DNA of 64,000 nt from Fibrobacter succinogenes (GTDB lineage: Bacteria > Fibrobacterota > Fibrobacteria > Fibrobacterales > Fibrobacteraceae). The notes beneath the pieces were generated by a model. The model ran no database searches and was not told the DNA's origin. It saw only the letters and a list, made by a program, of their open reading frames with translations. Position numbers and translations under genes: made by a program. Where the stretch lies: the NCBI GenBank assembly GCA_902794535.1, contig CADBHQ010000007.1:1-64000 (forward strand), in the 5' to 3' direction. This document shows, piece by piece, positions 45,441 to 55,826 of the stretch (position 1 is its first letter; every line of letters starts with the position of its first letter).

Positions 45441-46337
45441 ATGCCAGGAATCATCCGTTTTGCGCCGAGTCCCACGGGCTTTTTACACGAAGGGCACCTG
45501 CTCTCAGCCCTTTACGTATGGGCGGCCGCAAAAAAATGGGGTCTCAAGATTCACCTTCGCATCGAAGACCACGACCAAGGCCGCGCCCGCAAGGAATATA
45601 TCAACGGCATCCGCGAAGATCTCGCCTGGTTCGGATTCCAGTACGACAGCGAAAGCATTCAAAGTTCGCACTTTGACTTTTTCCAGAAAGTCCTCGACAA
45701 ACTCACCGCTCAAGGGCTTGTGTACCCCTGCACCTGCAGCCGCAAGCAATTGCAATCCGAAAATCCCGTAAGCGAAACCGGCGAAGTCATTTACCAAGGC
45801 AAATGCCGCACGCATACAATGCCCTGCAGCGAACCTCATAGCCTACGTATCGTTATTCCAAACAAAGTAATTAATTGGCACGACGAGCGCCTCGGTGACT
45901 TTAGCGAAAATCCGAAAAATCAATGCGGAGATTTCCCTATTCGCGACCGCGACGGTTTCTGGACCTACCAATTCGCCGTCTGCATCGATGACCTTACCCA
46001 AGGAATCACGCATATTGTTCGCGGTGAAGATATCCGCAATTCTACCGCCCGCCAAATAGCCCTTTCGCAATTAATTGCCGAAACTTGCCAAGGCGACCCC
46101 AACCTAAATATACCCCACTACACGCGCCCAGTATATCTGCACCACCCACTTATTGTCGACCCGACTGGCAAAAAGCTCTCCAAGCGCGAGCACGCCTACA
46201 GTCTCCGTCAAGAAAAAGAAAACGGCAAGACTCCCCAGGAACTTTTGGGGCAAATCCTTCATAAAGCCGGTTTTTTGTCACATATTATACCGACAACGTT
46301 AGAACAAGCGATAGCAACGGTTGCAGAGCGCCTGTAA
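45441..46337 (+). CDS. gluQ: Glutamyl-Q tRNA(Asp) synthetase
   Basis: This 298-residue enzyme is a shortened glutamyl-tRNA synthetase that lacks the anticodon-binding domain; it attaches glutamate to queuosine in tRNA-Asp. It has the HIGH-like APSPTGFLHEGH, the zinc ligands CTCSRK...YQGKC, the RGEDI segment and the KLSKREH signature. The length equals that of YadB/GluQRS. It is transcribed away from the M16 gene with a promoter that overlaps no ribosome binding site. Confidence 0.92.
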   Translation: MPGIIRFAPSPTGFLHEGHLLSALYVWAAAKKWGLKIHLRIEDHDQGRARKEYINGIREDLAWFGFQYDSESIQSSHFDFFQKVLDKLTAQGLVYPCTCSRKQLQSENPVSETGEVIYQGKCRTHTMPCSEPHSLRIVIPNKVINWHDERLGDFSENPKNQCGDFPIRDRDGFWTYQFAVCIDDLTQGITHIVRGEDIRNSTARQIALSQLIAETCQGDPNLNIPHYTRPVYLHHPLIVDPTGKKLSKREHAYSLRQEKENGKTPQELLGQILHKAGFLSHIIPTTLEQAIATVAERL

Positions 46338-46364: not shown

Positions 46365-46395
46365 ACCTAATTTCGCAACTAGCAATAAATTAGGT
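46365..46395. promoter_or_regulatory. Perfect inverted repeat over the promoter of the helicase-like gene
   Basis: ACCTAATTT (46365-46373) and AAATTAGGT (46387-46395) are perfect complements 13 bases apart. The right arm touches the TATATT box, and the left arm covers the -35 region. This is a classic operator layout; the regulator is unknown. Confidence 0.5.
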
Positions 46396-46400
46396 ATATT
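46395..46400 (+). promoter_or_regulatory. -10 box of the helicase-like gene (leaderless start)
   Basis: TATATT is followed by exactly six bases and the ATG at 46407, so transcription is expected to start at or next to the start codon. No Shine-Dalgarno site is present. Confidence 0.5.
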
Positions 46401-46406
46401 CAGGGT

Positions 46407-49400
46407 ATGTCTTCATCTTCTGCTATTGTCGCCAAAATTCGGCAAGAAGCCGCCCTCTTTGACTCCAAAGACCGTTTACTTAGTTTTTCGACCAAAAACG
46501 ATTTCCAGTCGCCCCTGATCGCCGAGGCAGGAGACCTTTTCTACGAAAAATGGTTGCAAGCCCATGGGCCCCTTCCCCTGGAATCCTTTTTCCAGGTTTC
46601 TCAGAATTTTACGGCGCAGCAAAAGATTACCGCCCTCGACACCATCACCTCGGTGCTTCGTCACAAACTTGACGATTACGGCGAAACAGATCTTTACCTG
46701 CTTCTCGGCTTTTTGAAATGGGACGGCAATGCCCTTGCCCCAAGCCTTTTGGTTCCGCTCGACTTCGATCCGACCAAGAATACGGTTTCTATTTCGAATC
46801 GATCCCCCATCGAAAACATCGTCCTGCGCGAACGCCTCAAGGACTCGATTGCACTGCCCTCTGCCGAAGATGCTATTATCAACGGCAAGTTCAGCCTGCT
46901 CCTCTATTTTTCACAATTTGAAAAAGCCATTGCAGGCGAACGCAACTGGCGCTTTACCCGTCACGGGCTATGCCTCGGTTTTTTCAACACAAACCTTCTG
47001 CAGCTCAAGAAAAGATGCAGCCTAGGCTTTTCCGAAAAGAGCATTGCAGGGAACCCGATTTTGGCGTCGCTCCTTCGCAAGGAAGGTTTCCAGGCCCAAG
47101 AATCTCTGTTCGAAGAAAACGATTTCGACAATGTCTTTTCGCCGGCAGACCACCATTTCCTTTACACCACTGATTCGCACACGAATAAAGTGACAGTGGA
47201 TGCCGAAAACGAGCAAACCTGCGCCTACGCGATCCAGGCACTCCCCGGCACCGAAAAAATGAAGGTGGCCGCCAATATCGTCGCCGACGAAATCGCCCAG
47301 GGCAAAAAACTTTTAGTGGTCCACAAGCGCGCCGTTACGGCACGTGCATTCCAGAATGCCTGGAAACCGCCCTTCCGCAGTTTCCCGGATACCGACCGCA
47401 ACGCACTTGAACAGAAAGTTCGCGCCATGCGAAACGGTTTTCAGGAATACTACAACGCAGTAAACAAGCCTATTCCGCCTACCAACGTTTTACTTCCGGA
47501 ATTGCTGCGCGAATTCAAAGACGTCAAGCAGCCCAAAAAGAAATTCCCCGACCGTATTTTCCGCGGTGTAGGCCAACTGGACTTCAACAGTTACCAAGAG
47601 CTCAAGAAAGACATCCAGATTTTGTCGGAACTGTATTTCGACAAAAAGGGAGTCGATGCCCGCAAGGCATTCCAAGGGGTCAAGGTATCTAGCCTTTCAG
47701 AAGACCAGCAACAAACCCTTTGCGAAGAACTCCGCTGCGCGGCAACCCGCGCAAAAGAACTGGAACCCGTTATCAAGAAAATGGAATCGACAGGGCTTTT
47801 CCCCACCGGGATCTTCCTATCGGGCATGATCGACATTCTTGAACTTCTTCGCGATAATTTCGACGAAAATACTCCCACGTTCGAAGACTGGCAGTTGCGC
47901 AGCCACAACTGGACCGCCTACAGGGATACCCTCATGTACCTCCCCGAAGCAGGAGACCAATGGGTGCGGTACCGCAGGCAAACTTCTGACATTTATACCG
48001 ACAATGCCGTCGACGAAAACATCCAGAATGCACGCGACGACTTTGCCGAATGCCAGCACATTTCTCTCAAGGGCCTTTCGGAACGCTACCGCACATCCCG
48101 CAAGCGTTTGCTGCAGGTGATTCGCAAACCCAAGACCGTCGACTCCGACGCCAAACTCCTGGATTTGATTGACACGCTTCTCGAACTGCAAACCAACAAG
48201 AAGACTTACAAGGAAAGCGCCGTGCTCGGCAACCACTTGCTCGGGCGCGACTGGCACTTCGAAGGTTCTAACTGGGTCGAGCTGAATCAGAAAATTCAGT
48301 ATGTTTACGAATTCCGTGAAAAGCATAAAGACGACCCCAGGCTCGACCTGCTCCTACAGTTGCTTGAACAATGGCACAACTTTAAGGACCTTCAACCGGA
48401 ACTTTCGAATCTCTGGAATTCTGTCATCGAGCTTCAGTCCTCGATCAAGCAGATTAACAGGGACATGGAACTCGAGACACCTCTCGAAAGTTTGAGCATC
48501 GACAAGTGGCTCGGCAAGATTCAGTTGTGGAACGACAACTGGAGTCACCTCGATATTCATCTGCAGCTTTCAGCGCACTTCCAGAAAATGGAAAGCTACT
48601 GCAACACGGCCTTGGTCGAATACCTCAAGGACCCCGAAAACGCAGACGCCGATTTCTGCAACGCCCTCGCCCACTACTGGACCGGAGCCCAGATTCAGGC
48701 GGCCACCAAGATTTGCCCAACCCTGTTCTCGGAATCCCCGAAAGCCAAGGCGCAAAAGAGCAAAGACTACAGGGCTCTCTTGGACCAGTTCTCAAGCGCC
48801 AACTTCAAGGAACTGCATAACGCAGTCGAAGCCGATTCAAGCGTGCTCACCGTAGTACCGCTTGCAGACGCACTCAACATTTCCAACAAGCAGACCTTCG
48901 ACATTTCAATCATTCTCGATGCCGATGCCATTTCAATGGCAGAAGCCTTGCCAATTCTGTTTGCTGCACCCAAGACGATTCTTATTGGCGACCCGCACAC
49001 TCCGAGCCACGACTACTTACCGATTGACGCTTTCCACGAAGAATCCGTTACTCGTAGCGCTCTCTTCCAAGAAAGCATCTTGACCGCGGCTCTTCGTCAG
49101 GGAGCTCCGACCAGAGAACTCTGGTTCTCGACGCAATTCAACAATCCTGCCATTGTAAGCTTCGCTAACGAACGCATTTACAATCATGGAATCAAGCAGT
49201 TGCCGTCTCCGAACAACGACCTGTTCAAGGGCATTTCAATCAAGGAAGTTTCCGACAAGATCGAAACTATCGCCCTGACGGCAATTCACCACGCCGAACG
49301 CCATCCGGAAAGGACCCTCGGAATCATCGCATTCCACCAGTCCACCTGCCAAGAAATTGAAGACGCCATCCGCGCAAAGCTTATCGCAGGGACTCCGGCG

Positions 49401-50507
49401 GCCAATTTCTTTGCAAGACCGAATGCAGACATTCGCTATTTCGTAAAGACGCCCGAAAGAGCAATCGATCAATTCAGGGATACAATCCTTGTCTGTATCG
49501 AAGCCGAGGGCGCAGGCGGCCTTGCTGCCGACCACAAGATTGCAGTTTGCTCTACGCTGGCCAAGCGCGAACTCCGCGCATTCATTACAGAATCCGACCA
49601 GACAAAGATTGCATCGCAAAAGAATTCGCTTTTCCGCGAATGGATCAACCACCTGCAGTCAAGGCAGTATGACCCTGTAATCGAAATCGAGCCCGCAGAT
49701 TCTCCGCTCAGAGACGAAGTCATCGCGACTCTCAAGAACGAAAATATTCTGGTACAAGCCCACACTTCAAAGGGCGGCATTCCCGTGGGTCCGGTCGTCA
49801 TAGACGCAAACAATCCCACGCATTTCTTGTCGCTCATCGAAGACGATTGCACCACGGAACGTTTCCGCGATTCTATCGAAGACCGCGACTACGTACGCCC
49901 GCTTATTCTAAGGCAACTCGGCTGGAAGGTCATGAACCTTTGGTTACCGTTCTGGTACATGTCCAACAAGGACGAAGTCGGACACCTGGTGGCAACCATC
50001 GCTATCGAACAGAGTGTGGCTCCCCCGCCCACAGTAGAAGCCGACGAAGATGACGGTTCCGAAGTGTTTGATGCCGCAAAGCCCATGACCGAGCCTTACG
50101 TGGTACAGCACCCGAAAATCGAAGGAACCGCCCACGACAAGCCCATTGCAGAACTTCCGATTGCAGCGCTCATCACGCAGCTCAAGTTCTATGTCGACAG
50201 CGAAGCTCCAATTCACGAAGAAATCTTGAAACAGCGAATTCTGGAACTGCACCATGTCGACAGAGCAGGCCCTGTGCTCCAGCAAGTGCTGACCGAAGCC
50301 ATCCGTCAAGGATTGCAGAAGAAGCGCTTTATCAAGACAGGCCCGTTCTACTACTCGCTCAAGGCCAAGGAGCCGGTCGCACGCAATCGTGCAAACCGTC
50401 CGGACTTCGAACGCAAACTCGCATTTGTCGCTCCCGAAGAACGCGCGCTCATGCCACAAAACATGGACGAATTCGCTCTCAAGCAAACCATGGGACTGCT
50501 AGAATAA
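46407..50507 (+). CDS. DUF4011/DUF3320 SF1 helicase-like protein with degenerate active sites
   Basis: This 1366-residue protein follows the layout of DUF4011-helicase-nuclease-DUF3320 proteins: DUF4011-like start (KDRLLSF near 21), helicase lobe 1, a helical insert, lobe 2, a Vsr-like endonuclease fold (about 1095-1175) and DUF3320 (about 1231-1320). The catalytic motifs look lost. Walker A reads PGTEKMK (280-286) instead of GTGKS/T, Walker B reads LDADA (837-841) instead of DEAS, HYRS reads FSTQF, and the nuclease keeps IEDD but lacks the first metal-binding Asp. Active relatives occur in anti-phage systems (Hhe type). I infer a non-hydrolysing or regulatory descendant. It is a one-gene unit with an operator-like palindrome. 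Confidence 0.72.
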   Translation: MSSSSAIVAKIRQEAALFDSKDRLLSFSTKNDFQSPLIAEAGDLFYEKWLQAHGPLPLESFFQVSQNFTAQQKITALDTITSVLRHKLDDYGETDLYLLLGFLKWDGNALAPSLLVPLDFDPTKNTVSISNRSPIENIVLRERLKDSIALPSAEDAIINGKFSLLLYFSQFEKAIAGERNWRFTRHGLCLGFFNTNLLQLKKRCSLGFSEKSIAGNPILASLLRKEGFQAQESLFEENDFDNVFSPADHHFLYTTDSHTNKVTVDAENEQTCAYAIQALPGTEKMKVAANIVADEIAQGKKLLVVHKRAVTARAFQNAWKPPFRSFPDTDRNALEQKVRAMRNGFQEYYNAVNKPIPPTNVLLPELLREFKDVKQPKKKFPDRIFRGVGQLDFNSYQELKKDIQILSELYFDKKGVDARKAFQGVKVSSLSEDQQQTLCEELRCAATRAKELEPVIKKMESTGLFPTGIFLSGMIDILELLRDNFDENTPTFEDWQLRSHNWTAYRDTLMYLPEAGDQWVRYRRQTSDIYTDNAVDENIQNARDDFAECQHISLKGLSERYRTSRKRLLQVIRKPKTVDSDAKLLDLIDTLLELQTNKKTYKESAVLGNHLLGRDWHFEGSNWVELNQKIQYVYEFREKHKDDPRLDLLLQLLEQWHNFKDLQPELSNLWNSVIELQSSIKQINRDMELETPLESLSIDKWLGKIQLWNDNWSHLDIHLQLSAHFQKMESYCNTALVEYLKDPENADADFCNALAHYWTGAQIQAATKICPTLFSESPKAKAQKSKDYRALLDQFSSANFKELHNAVEADSSVLTVVPLADALNISNKQTFDISIILDADAISMAEALPILFAAPKTILIGDPHTPSHDYLPIDAFHEESVTRSALFQESILTAALRQGAPTRELWFSTQFNNPAIVSFANERIYNHGIKQLPSPNNDLFKGISIKEVSDKIETIALTAIHHAERHPERTLGIIAFHQSTCQEIEDAIRAKLIAGTPAANFFARPNADIRYFVKTPERAIDQFRDTILVCIEAEGAGGLAADHKIAVCSTLAKRELRAFITESDQTKIASQKNSLFREWINHLQSRQYDPVIEIEPADSPLRDEVIATLKNENILVQAHTSKGGIPVGPVVIDANNPTHFLSLIEDDCTTERFRDSIEDRDYVRPLILRQLGWKVMNLWLPFWYMSNKDEVGHLVATIAIEQSVAPPPTVEADEDDGSEVFDAAKPMTEPYVVQHPKIEGTAHDKPIAELPIAALITQLKFYVDSEAPIHEEILKQRILELHHVDRAGPVLQQVLTEAIRQGLQKKRFIKTGPFYYSLKAKEPVARNRANRPDFERKLAFVAPEERALMPQNMDEFALKQTMGLLE

Positions 50508-50530: not shown

Positions 50531-50564
50531 AAAAAGTTCCACCCATCGTTGGGTGGAACTTTTT
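50531..50564. terminator. Bidirectional terminator between helicase-like and SPOR genes
   Basis: AAAAAGTTCCACCCA pairs with TGGGTGGAACTTTTT around a 4-base loop, with A- and T-runs on both sides. It sits between two convergent genes and can end both transcripts. Confidence 0.85.
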
Positions 50565-51067: not shown

Positions 51068-54000
51068 TTACTTTTTAGCAGGAGCCTTCGCGTAATCCGT
51101 CACAGCCTTCGGCGAACGCTTGACACCCCAGACAGAGGTGCTTTCCTGCTTGGCATCCTTACCAGCAGAACCAAGCTTCACGTAGGAATTGAGCTTAACA
51201 ATGTAAGCGCCAGTTCCAACCACACGGCCCTTATCAGAACGCATGTTCCAGCCGATGAAGAAGTTACGGTCATTACCAGATTCCGTGCAAAGGCCACCAT
51301 TGAAGTACTGAATTGTCTGGTTCGTCACCGGATCCTTTTCAGTGTTCTTCTTATCATCGCAGTAAATCTTCTTAGACTTACCAGCAACGAAGTTGCCCAA
51401 GTTAGTGAAGTACTGTACTTCGTAGTAGAAGAACATGTCTTCCGCCTTCACATTTGCCCTTTCTTCGTCAGTCAAGCCGTTGTACAAAGCGTACATGTCT
51501 GCCTTGACCAAGTGACCAGGCTTGCCACCTTCGGCAGCAAAGACTTCAGCCTTGGTCATTGACGTGCGGTAAGAATTCACCGTCACAGCAGGAACCTTGT
51601 CACCGGCCGGGCCATTAGCAGTCGAAGCAAACTTGTTTTCAATCACGTCAATGTCAGCATCACCCGTCACCGGAATCCACATAGACGGAAGTCTCTTCGT
51701 TTCATTGTAGCCCGTCGGAGAATTCCAGTAGAAGGCAGCATCAGCAGCAGAACGCAAAGTATCGCTACCCGGCTGAGTATAATGAGTCGTATCGGCATCA
51801 GACCAGAAGATATTGGAGAGATTACCGCCCAAGCGCACAAAGTCACCCACATGCGGAGACACATTGCCACGCTGGTACAAGAATCTAATACGACCTTCAC
51901 CATTAACAGCAGTCACAAGCGGATCAACCCGAGAGGTTACCACGGCAGAAGTGTTAGCCAAAGAAGATACATAGCGGTTAGATTCATCCAATTCAACAGC
52001 GGAATTCAAATAGAAGTCAACAGAAGTCTTCGCGTAGGTATCCGTCACCAAGCGAACCGGTTCGGACATAACCACGACAAGGCTGTCAACATCAGTCAAC
52101 TCATCGTCTTTCTTAATCGTACGAACTTCAGCACGCAGCGGCACAGGGGCGATACGATCGGTCAACGCACCGGCAAAGCCCTGCTTCACTTGCTTACCCT
52201 TATCTTCAAATACGGCATAAGAATGAACCTTACCCACACCAGCCGTCTTTACACCTGTAGAAAGCGTAAGGCCACCGATCTTGATCAAGTTGGAGCAATA
52301 GCCGCTCTTTCCGTTGTATTCAACCGGAGAAGAACAGTCAATATTGCTTGCATCAACACTAATCAATTCGTTACAAGAAATCAGAGAGTCCTTGGAAATG
52401 TTGGAGTAGCCTTCCTTAACCGGGTTATGTTCTTCGGCAGAAAGGGAATCCCACATCACGCAGAGCATGGTCGGCAAGGAGTCCTTGTGAATCGGACGGT
52501 CATAGTAAATAGCAACAGAGTCGCCGATACCATCCAAGTATTCCTGATCCATGCTAAAGTACGGTGCCGGAATCTTGTATTCCACAGCAGGGAGAGCGCC
52601 ATGCACGTCGAACACATCGGCAAGCACCGGATACGGTACCGGAGGATCGCGGAAGTACATCGGGTTATAAACAGCCTGCACAAAATCGTTGTATTCAGCC
52701 ACAATCGTTGCCGGGTTATTAATCGTCTCATCGGTATCCCAACGATACTTGGTCAACGAACGGACAGAAATGGTTGCATAGCCATCCTTAAATTCAACTT
52801 CTTCTGGGATAAAGTCAATCTTCGGAGAAGTCAAATTACCCTTATGAATCTTGAGACCCTAAAGGTTTTTCCATCGGCATTGGGTTTCAGCACGCTCAAG
52901 TACAAATCGTAAATCGAGCCGACCCAGTATTCTTCGTAAGAACCATCCGGTAAGGAATCCTGGCCCTGAACAGCAACAGCATTTCCACCTTCTTCCGGAA
53001 TTGCTCTGATAAACGAAATTCGCGGCAAGTAGAAGCTGACAGAAAGCGCATTCGGTCGACCAGACACACTAATCTTAAACGTCTGGATGCTCGCAGACAT
53101 GTCTTGCATAGGAATTGTCACGTAAACAGTGTCCACACCAGTTGCACCAATTGTACGAGGTGTACCAGAACCGATCGGTTTACAAGTATCACCACCATCA
53201 TAAGCACAGAACTTCAGAAGCTTGGCCGCACCACTGTTATCGGAAGCCTGCAAAGTGTACTGAACACCCACAGCGTCGTCCGGATAAATTTCAACTTTAC
53301 CGGTACCTTCAACAGGGGCCAAGGAAGACACATAGACCGGTATAGGCTGTCCCGCCATAGCTGTTGTTTCAATCGTGTAGCTGCCAATCTTAACTTGGTT
53401 AGAGTCCATAGCATCACCGTTTGCATAGACAACGTCCACTTCACCACTTCTACGGAAGGAGTAGACCTTCTTCGTTCACCCAAGCCACAAATAGCTTCAG
53501 GATCAATCTTCGGGTTAGCCGGATTCGTCAAATCGATACCGCACTTATGAACACCGCTAGACACATTTTCTACGCCAGGTACTGCCGGAGAAGAGGCCAA
53601 ATTGCCCTGAACGAGCGTATAGGAAATGCTGAAACTAGAATTCTTAAGATCATCGCCACAATAGATCTTTTCTTCTTCATCACCCGTCATGGCCGCAGCG
53701 CAAGAGCCATCACCACTCTGGGTATAGCATATTTCATAAGCCTTTTCAGAGGTACCAGTTTTCTGAGCCTTTGCTTCGATAGCGGTCTTCTGCTGAATGT
53801 ACATATTCGTCTTGATACGCACGTTACTCATGGTAGTACGACGGTCGCAGAAGAAGATATCCAAATCATACTGGTTGCCAGCTACAAGCGCACCACTCTT
53901 ACCCTTGAACTTATCGAGATTCACATAACCCGGAGCGGCCAAGTGAGTACCACCAAGGTCCACAGCCAACTGGTTATCAATAAACACCCAAATATCATCA

Positions 54001-55757
54001 TCACCGCGGAAGTTGAACTTCAGACCCGGCTTATGGGTAAACTTGGCATGAGATTCAAAGCAGAACTGCTGGTTACGACCCGTCTTGGAAGTCCAGCGCG
54101 GAGAACCGTTAGCCTGGCCACCAACACCCGGCTCTGCCGGCGTTTCGGTACCATCTTCAAAGAAAGCCCATCCCTTCGGAGCATCATTCGGGCAGCTCCA
54201 TCCGAAGATACAGCCGGTGTTATCGTTACCAAGGCCAAAATGCTCTCTAACAACAGTTTCCGTTCCTTCGCCATCGGCAAAGAGACCATCACAATCAATA
54301 CCACCATCCCAACCCGGGCCGTTACAAAGAACGTCGATGTTGGGAATGCCTTCGGTAGGATTATTTTCACGAAGAGCCGGGCCATAGAACACCGGGCCTT
54401 CGGCCATACGCGGGGTACGAGCCTTAGCAACAGGAGTCTGAGAGGGGTCTGCAGCAAGAATAGTCGCATCTGTAGAGCCTTCTACCGGATAGAAACCGCC
54501 CTGCACACTAAGACCAGGACTAGTGTAGAAGTCAGAGTCAAATTCCCACTTACCGTCAGAAGAACGATGGAACGGCATATTGAAGCAGCTCTTTTCGTTC
54601 ACGCCCTGTGTATAGCTAAACAGCATGTTAAAGTACTTGTCATCGATAAAGCACTTCTTACCAGCAGAAGACAGCTTAGGCTTTCTTTGAGACTGCGGAA
54701 CAGTTTCATCAAGAGTCGATTCCACGATGCCCGGAGTCACACCGATACACTCATAAATAGCCTTAAGAGCAACATTCGCGTTTACACCAGCAGCCGCATT
54801 CGTTTGATCCACTTTTTGGCAAGCATCAAAAGTCGGATTCGGATCGTGCGGTTTGGGATCGCCGGGTCCACCATAGCAAGAGAACGCCGGATGCAGGCTG
54901 GCATCGCTATCATAAATAATAGCAGCCATGGTGTATTCACAGGAACCTTCGATACCTTCCACATCGGCCTTATGGTAATAGTAGCCATCAGGTGTAGTTT
55001 TCTGTCCCTCATCCGGCACAAAGAACAAAGAGTCTTCCATAGTGAAAACGGATGCGAGCGGGATAGGCTGAGCAGATGCTGCAGTTTCCCAGTTGCCGTT
55101 CACACCAATCATGTCTTCACGGTCAAGGTCATCATCACGATAAAGAAGCACATTATCCGTGATTTCTTCATTAAAGAATACATAGGAATACCAGCCGCAC
55201 ATGCCATCAACAGCGGTCATAGCTTTACCGGTCTGACCACCATCCAAACTAAGCATCGGCACAGCCGACATCCATTCGTCCATATCAGGCGGAATCATCA
55301 CAAAGAAATACTTTGCGTTAGGCGGATTTTCGCTAACCACGGTTTTTTCCGGATTAGTCGGATCTGCAAAAATATAGAGGTCACCTGTTCTGCTACAAGG
55401 AATACCATCTTGCTGATTACAAGATGTCTTGTCAAATTCAGAATTCGTAATGCCGGCAGACTGGCAGTAGTCGTTGTTGACCGAAGCGATAAAGAACGAT
55501 GTATCCTGTCCTTGAGCAATGAGAGAAGACTTAACAGTCCACCATCCGTCAGCTTGTTTTGTAAACGGAACAAACTTACCACCACCGGCAGCATAAGCCG
55601 TGGTCCAACTCTTAGGAGCATCGAGATAAACGGTACCTTCGGCACAAACCTGTCCGTTTAACGCAAATGCACTCTGCGCCCCAACGAAAAGCAGACAAAC
55701 ACCCAACGCCCACTTAACAAGGAGGTTCATTTTATTCATTTTCATTTTTGTTTCCAT
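51068..55757 (-). pseudogene. Fibro-slime domain protein interrupted by two frameshifts
   Basis: Three pieces in two reading frames together equal the intact paralogue next door. Piece 1 (55757 to about 53478) has a signal peptide and the fibro-slime domain (about residues 555-645: FRGDDDIWVFIDNQLAVDLGG). Piece 2 runs to about 52861 and piece 3 to 51068. At 53474-53480 frame 1 leaves LGE and the frame of YSFRRSGEVDVVY takes over; at 52860 the frame of GKTF changes to that of GLKIHKG. In both places one missing base restores a sequence that aligns to the paralogue. Real decay and sequencing error are both possible. Fibro-slime proteins are surface adhesins of Fibrobacter. The ATG at 55757 has RBS GGAAGGA. 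Confidence 0.8.
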
Positions 55758-55783
55758 CGATGGTTTTCCTTCCAACAGGGCAT
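55742..55783 (-). other. Possible leader ORF overlapping the first fibro-slime start
   Basis: ATGCCC starts a 13-codon reading frame (MPCWKENHRWKQK) that overlaps the main start in another frame. The second fibro-slime gene has a similar short frame at its start. It may only reflect conserved bases around the ribosome binding site. Confidence 0.25.
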
Positions 55784-55786
55784 AAC

Positions 55787-55803
55787 AAAAGGACGGACCT
55801 TTT
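55787..55803 (-). promoter_or_regulatory. Conserved leader hairpin of fibro-slime gene 1
   Basis: On the minus strand AAAAGG-TCCGT-CCTTTT forms a hairpin about 30 bases before the start. The same hairpin with changed stem bases and a GGTC(C/G)GTC core recurs before the second fibro-slime gene, together with the TATGCCC and TTGGAAGGAA that follow. Confidence 0.5.
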
Positions 55804-55826
55804 CGATATCCCATAGACCGCCCTCA

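Follow-up and report, generated by a model that had tools for sequence, protein, structure and literature searches.

The 64,000-nucleotide stretch of Fibrobacter succinogenes DNA analysed here (assembly GCA_902794535.1, contig CADBHQ010000007.1, positions 1 to 64,000), hereafter called the window, carries on its forward strand a long gene located directly downstream of gluQRS, in a window that also holds housekeeping genes. The gene consists of an open frame of 1366 codons (46407-50507) devoid of any internal stop, and its product is an old, core and, judged by its motifs, catalytically dead descendant of an anti-phage-type helicase-nuclease, the fold and full length of which are under strong selection. 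No publication dealing with this protein was found in literature searches. The features of the gene and of its immediate surroundings are listed in Table 1.

Table 1. Features of the pseudoenzyme gene and its surroundings, in window coordinates
Feature	Position	Strand	Observation
gluQRS (glutamyl-Q tRNA(Asp) synthetase-like)	45441..46337	+	conserved upstream neighbour
TATATT box, promoter-like, 6 nt before ATG	46395..46400	+	6-9 nt before ATG in seven genera
Pseudo-helicase-nuclease gene, 1366 aa	46407..50507	+	uninterrupted frame; 93 crown-clade genomes with orthologues
DUF4011 region, residues 65-144	46599..46838	+	Pfam E 1.5e-4; 13/16 orthologues match
Former Walker A ALPGTEKM, residues 278-285	47238..47261	+	canonical GPPGTGKS
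Large helical region splitting the first RecA domain halves, residues 336-815	47412..48851	+	within PDC-S37 match; model mostly helices
Former Walker B LDAD, residues 837-840	48915..48926	+	canonical DEAS; LDAD invariant in genus
Former HYRS motif STQF, residues 908-911	49128..49139	+	canonical HYRS
Former motif VI STLAK, residues 1049-1053	49551..49565	+	Leu at the arginine-finger position, or His in some sister genera
Vsr-like MTES_1575 nuclease domain, residues 1103-1198	49713..50000	+	Gly1128 at first Asp position; Glu1145, Asp1147 kept
IEQSVAPPP, residues 1200-1208, nearly invariant signature after nuclease domain	50004..50030	+	orthologue comparison
DUF3320 winged-helix region and C-terminal tail, residues 1241-1366	50127..50504	+	Pfam; pI 8.9; weak winged-helix matches
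15-bp hairpin just past stop codon, possible two-way terminator	50531..50564	.	consensus match only

According to the nature and order of its domains, the protein is a diverged member of the group associating a DUF4011 region, a superfamily 1B (SF1B) helicase, a Vsr-like nuclease and a DUF3320 region, with the anti-phage families ProA, PDC-S37 and Hhe as its nearest relatives. Pfam recognizes the MTES_1575 nuclease domain, DUF3320 (residues 1263-1291) and DUF4011, all at or below the cut-off (32.6 bits against 38.2 for MTES_1575), and the helicase is recognized by family profile and fold; the four parts follow one another in the order found in ProA and PDC-S37, and the similarity is co-linear. 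The family matches extend to PDC-S37 of PADLOC (E 4.8e-107, 357 bits), to ProA of NCBIfam (NF058533, E 6.8e-67, 226 bits against a curated cut-off of 1500) and, more weakly, to Hhe (NF042953, E 6.3e-23, 80 bits against a cut-off of 2000). The ProA cut-off is also missed by L038 (1241 bits), a canonical DUF4011 paralogue with intact motifs, which is matched by the Pfam profiles AAA_11 and AAA_12, whereas the window protein is not. The origin from an anti-phage-type enzyme proposed in a first-pass annotation of this DNA is thus borne out by the family matches.

For the catalytic motifs, 72 distinct orthologues, drawn from seven genera, were set against four canonical paralogues encoded by other Fibrobacter genomes and retaining GPPGTGK[ST], DEAS, VQGDERD, the arginine of motif VI and the nuclease Asp. 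With respect to these paralogues, the window protein exhibits ALPGTEKM in place of GPPGTGKS, LDAD in place of DEAS, STQF in place of HYRS, TLAK in place of TRAK and VGP in place of RID, so that neither the SF1B motifs I, II, III, V and VI nor the intact Walker A, Walker B and nuclease Asp of the ProA/PDC-S37 kind are found. In the gapless alignment LDAD stands opposite DEAS, the Walker B Asp being replaced by Leu and the catalytic Glu by Asp. None of the 72 orthologues retains the glycine preceding the Walker A lysine (GK), the Asp and catalytic Glu of Walker B, the Gln of motif III, the Gln and Glu of motif V or the arginine of motif VI, and the Ser/Thr of Walker A is gone in 70; the Walker A lysine itself persists in the window protein and in 59/72 orthologues. 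The first nuclease Asp is never an Asp, being replaced by Gly in 59 orthologues and by Gln, Ser, Cys, Glu, Ala or Leu in the other 13, and the G and H of the nuclease motif have also disappeared from the window protein. These losses are not due to chance or to an assembly error, because they recur in homologues from 93 genomes. The alterations of Walker A, of the HYRS-like motif and of the first nuclease Asp read by the first-pass annotation are confirmed by the alignment, as is that of Walker B, although the reported DADA has to be shifted by one residue to LDAD; the losses in motifs III, V and VI and of the nuclease G and H come in addition to those listed there. By every motif test, both ATPase and nuclease catalysis are lost.

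The former Walker A glycine and Ser/Thr positions have drifted (entropy 2.2 against a mean of 1.34), and within the genus sample LDAD, G1128-P1129 and L1051-A1052 do not vary, D838 being present in all 72 orthologues. Such a drift of old catalytic sites next to newly fixed residues is what would be expected of a repurposed pseudoenzyme. An enzyme whose catalytic residues have been relocated is a very unlikely reading: in its favour, Glu1145 and Asp1147 of the nuclease are kept in 72/72 orthologues, a new Asp1133 lies close to the lost Asp and most orthologues possess the Walker A lysine, but the helicase motifs all fail together, the motif VI arginine being missing throughout, and Asp1133 is an Asn in G063. 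A relocated P-loop was also considered and discarded, since the P-loop search detected none elsewhere in the window protein and none conserved among the orthologues; the alignment bears out the motif losses, with no other Walker A in the protein.

Evidence that the gene is maintained comes from the ratio of non-synonymous to synonymous substitutions (dN/dS), which ranges from 0.028 to 0.076 over the whole gene in pairwise Nei-Gojobori counts on the 14 closest pairs, the large dS values being rough. The nuclease domain gives 0.014-0.15 and the dead RecA domains give low values too, the few higher values being traced to short stretches or to very close pairs. The intact neighbour gluQRS yields 0.04-0.16 in six of these pairs (a seventh shows too few changes to count), and the pseudoenzyme is therefore as constrained as its neighbour, or more so. 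The full-length protein, dead domains included, is held by strong purifying selection. The first-pass annotation had taken the absence of stops as a sign that the gene is not dead and had proposed this selection test in Fibrobacter; the outcome agrees with its prediction and constitutes far stronger evidence than a stop-free frame. A recently decaying pseudogene, to which a stop in one orthologue and a split frame in another might point, is refuted by the selection test and by the full length kept in seven genera, even at identities as low as about 30%; its probability is practically nil.

A search among close relatives identified an orthologue in all 36 other sampled genomes of the genus, in one copy each, with 41-89% identity where the protein is full length. 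A profile built from 16 orthologues subsequently retrieved the gene from 78/80 genomes of the genus (the two without it are only 65-71% complete) and from 15/16 genomes belonging to six sister genera, i.e., 93/96 genomes of the crown Fibrobacteraceae, and nothing comparable elsewhere in the phylum. A profile match in G129 was rejected as an orthologue, being a fragment of a canonical paralogue. Some orthologues come from incomplete metagenome assemblies, and the damaged ones comprise a TAG stop in G027, a split frame in G066 and contig-end fragments in G014, G146 and G152. In the rpoB tree, six of the seven gene-bearing genera group together to the exclusion of g20 and g22, in which the gene is missing; the seventh, g18, for which no rpoB was found, is absent from this tree. 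A monophyletic gene tree was obtained, in broad agreement with the rpoB tree except for genus g16, whose different placement is probably a long-branch effect. Because the carrier genera form one rpoB clade apart from g20 and g22, the distribution is explained by a single gain before the crown Fibrobacteraceae radiation, followed by a loss in G133. A signature-peptide scan covering 84,980 species returned only Fibrobacter-type records and the viral contigs gave no match, within the reach of these peptide patterns; a phage origin was consequently rejected, with the same bound on the scan.

This near-universal occurrence is not the patchy distribution expected of an anti-phage defence gene. Canonical DUF4011 paralogues are sporadic in Fibrobacter and were seen in only a few of the genomes searched, the genome of the window being among those without one. 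The four intact-motif helicase-nucleases L038 (G032), L051 (G104), L039 (G005) and L231 (G120) coexist with the pseudoenzyme and are likely to be real anti-phage genes. Their shared fold and their coexistence with the pseudoenzyme in four genomes led to consideration of an inhibitor or decoy paired with active DUF4011 paralogues. Such a role is very unlikely, because the target paralogue is absent from most genomes searched and the gene is kept regardless. Among the structural, sensing or inhibitory functions suggested at first, the last is accordingly weakened by the near-universality of the gene and the rarity of its canonical paralogue, and the two others are still possible.

The structure of residues 181-1366 was predicted with AlphaFold from an alignment with 42 orthologues (predicted local distance difference test, pLDDT, 85.6; predicted template modelling score, pTM, 0.66). 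The model displays the tandem RecA fold of an Upf1-like SF1B helicase, and its best Foldseek matches in the PDB are Dna2, Aquarius, Upf1, Senataxin and Ighmbp2, all of them SF1B proteins (E 7.8e-10 to 1e-7, probability 1.0), with low whole-query TM-scores since only the helicase part aligns. The Upf1/Dna2-type helicase fold is thus retained in the predicted structure. The C-terminal 282 residues, modelled with a pLDDT of 82.7, weakly match Toxoplasma mitoribosomal proteins, which we take to be of the RAP type, as well as the Vsr-like nucleases 3hrl and 3r3p and various winged helices. A sequence search of the PDB gave no match with the single protein and nothing convincing with the profile.

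In 64/66 loci, a few of which are duplicate records, the gene is immediately preceded on the same strand by gluQRS, usually within 80 nt, and the genes beyond gluQRS vary from one locus to another. The pseudoenzyme occurs without an adjacent gluQRS in G063 and L148, and gluQRS occurs without the pseudoenzyme in G133 and G119. The conserved TATATT box suggests that the gene possesses its own promoter and a near-leaderless transcript. A strict operon with gluQRS was discarded as an explanation: the linkage is strong, yet the own conserved box and the separate losses argue against dependence. Several long frames of the window are preceded by similar TATATT boxes, located 6-11 nt from the ATG (10731, 12416, 27385, 35778 on the minus strand, 46395, and 51016 on the minus strand), and Fibrobacter may use many such near-leaderless transcripts. 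In genus g15 (L080, G063), the search retrieved GltX-like matches only and no GluQRS-type gene; glutamylation of queuosine may have been lost there.

The persistence of gluQRS upstream, in spite of rearranged genes beyond it, favours an RNA- or translation-linked factor, in which the dead nuclease would be RAP-like and the SF1B groove would hold RNA, in relation with the tRNA-modifying gluQRS. The RNA helicases Upf1, Senataxin and Aquarius among the nearest folds and, weakly, the Toxoplasma mitoribosomal proteins point in the same direction. However, the two genes occur apart in the four cases mentioned above, the own promoter-like box means that the linkage may be incidental, and the RAP-like matches are weak. 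This narrower version of the explanation favoured below is a tentative possibility, rather unlikely as it stands. No better rated is the proposal that the anti-phage helicase-nuclease turned family-wide into a non-enzymatic core RNA/DNA-binding factor, for which gluQRS might provide a link to translation or tRNA and in which the dead Vsr-like domain would serve as a RAP-like binding module.

The known systems closest to the pseudoenzyme differ from it in distinct respects. ProA and PDC-S37 share its domain order and co-linear similarity, but the window protein falls far under the ProA cut-off, has lost the catalytic motifs and is core instead of sporadic. Hhe has the same DUF4011 helicase architecture with a weaker similarity, the window protein being shorter, catalytically dead by motif, and core. 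AddB and RecC offer the example of an SF1 helicase fold without ATPase motifs, kept as a sequence scanner (PMC4824097); the likeness resides in a dead SF1 fold kept for another task, without any claim of homology, and AddB/RecC are UvrD-like whereas the window protein is Upf1/DUF4011-like. Replacement of RecC itself is ruled out, because each of the 13 genomes checked has separate RecB- and RecC-type genes, whether or not it carries the pseudoenzyme. Among the RAP-domain/FASTK proteins, FASTKD4 possesses a Vsr-like fold that binds RNA without cleavage (PMC11879112); the non-cleaving fold is shared, although the structural resemblance is weak and these proteins are eukaryotic and built on another architecture. 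Finally, a DUF4011 gene occurs at the right flank of the cDHS1 defence hotspot in every isolate of P. aeruginosa (PMC10250203), and resembles the pseudoenzyme in being a core DUF4011 gene, in a different neighbourhood. Together with the anti-phage nature of the closest families, this core gene flanking a core defence hotspot would fit a still-working immune sensor, recognizing phage nucleic acid without ATP and signalling to another effector. This is doubtful, as the pseudoenzyme is core, single-copy and vertically inherited and no recurring defence genes were seen alongside, though most variable neighbours were left without identity.

The explanation we favour, with a confidence slightly better than even, is that of a domesticated pseudoenzyme: a helicase-nuclease of anti-phage descent which now serves as a non-enzymatic housekeeping scaffold or sensor binding nucleic acid or partners. 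A DUF4011 SF1B helicase of the ProA/PDC-S37 kind, fused to a Vsr-like nuclease, would have been captured once by the ancestor of the crown Fibrobacteraceae, would have lost its ATPase and nuclease chemistry in that ancestor, and would then have been retained by purifying selection. The helicase groove, the dead Vsr-like domain and the winged helix would hold nucleic acid, partner proteins or both, without turnover, and the expressed protein would act as a scaffold or sensor, comparable to the AddB/RecC scanners and the RNA-binding Vsr-like RAP domains. We infer its ligand, partners and process by analogy with these systems, and a role as a protein scaffold is also possible. Several observations weigh against a domesticated nucleic-acid-binding pseudoenzyme. 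The protein is mostly acidic (pI 5.6 for the whole, 4.8 for the nuclease domain), which disfavours strong nucleic-acid binding outside the winged helix (8.9). The retained Glu1145 and Asp1147 make some residual nuclease chemistry with a shifted Asp conceivable. Every Foldseek E-value of the C-terminal model exceeds 0.001, and the gene is missing from the sister-genus genome G133, which is 94% complete, hence it is dispensable somewhere.

Downstream of the pseudoenzyme gene, a fibro-slime-type gene (51068-55814, minus strand) is distributed over three frames (53214-55814, 52831-53439 and 51068-52834), and forms one intact frame of 1593 residues in the same-species genome G065. The window copy is either a real pseudogene or the result of an assembly error.

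Defence genes are usually gained and lost fast, and here one has become fixed in a whole family once its motor and its blade had both been lost, which provides a clear test case for immune enzymes turning into housekeeping scaffolds. The core and family-wide status of the gene, its linkage to gluQRS and its own conserved promoter-like box lay beyond the reach of the first reading of the sequence. Domain-based annotation of defence systems calls for caution in this respect, as it may count such pseudoenzymes as active systems. For the Fibrobacteraceae, the finding draws attention to a 1366-residue protein of unassigned role in a major fibre-degrading lineage of the gut.
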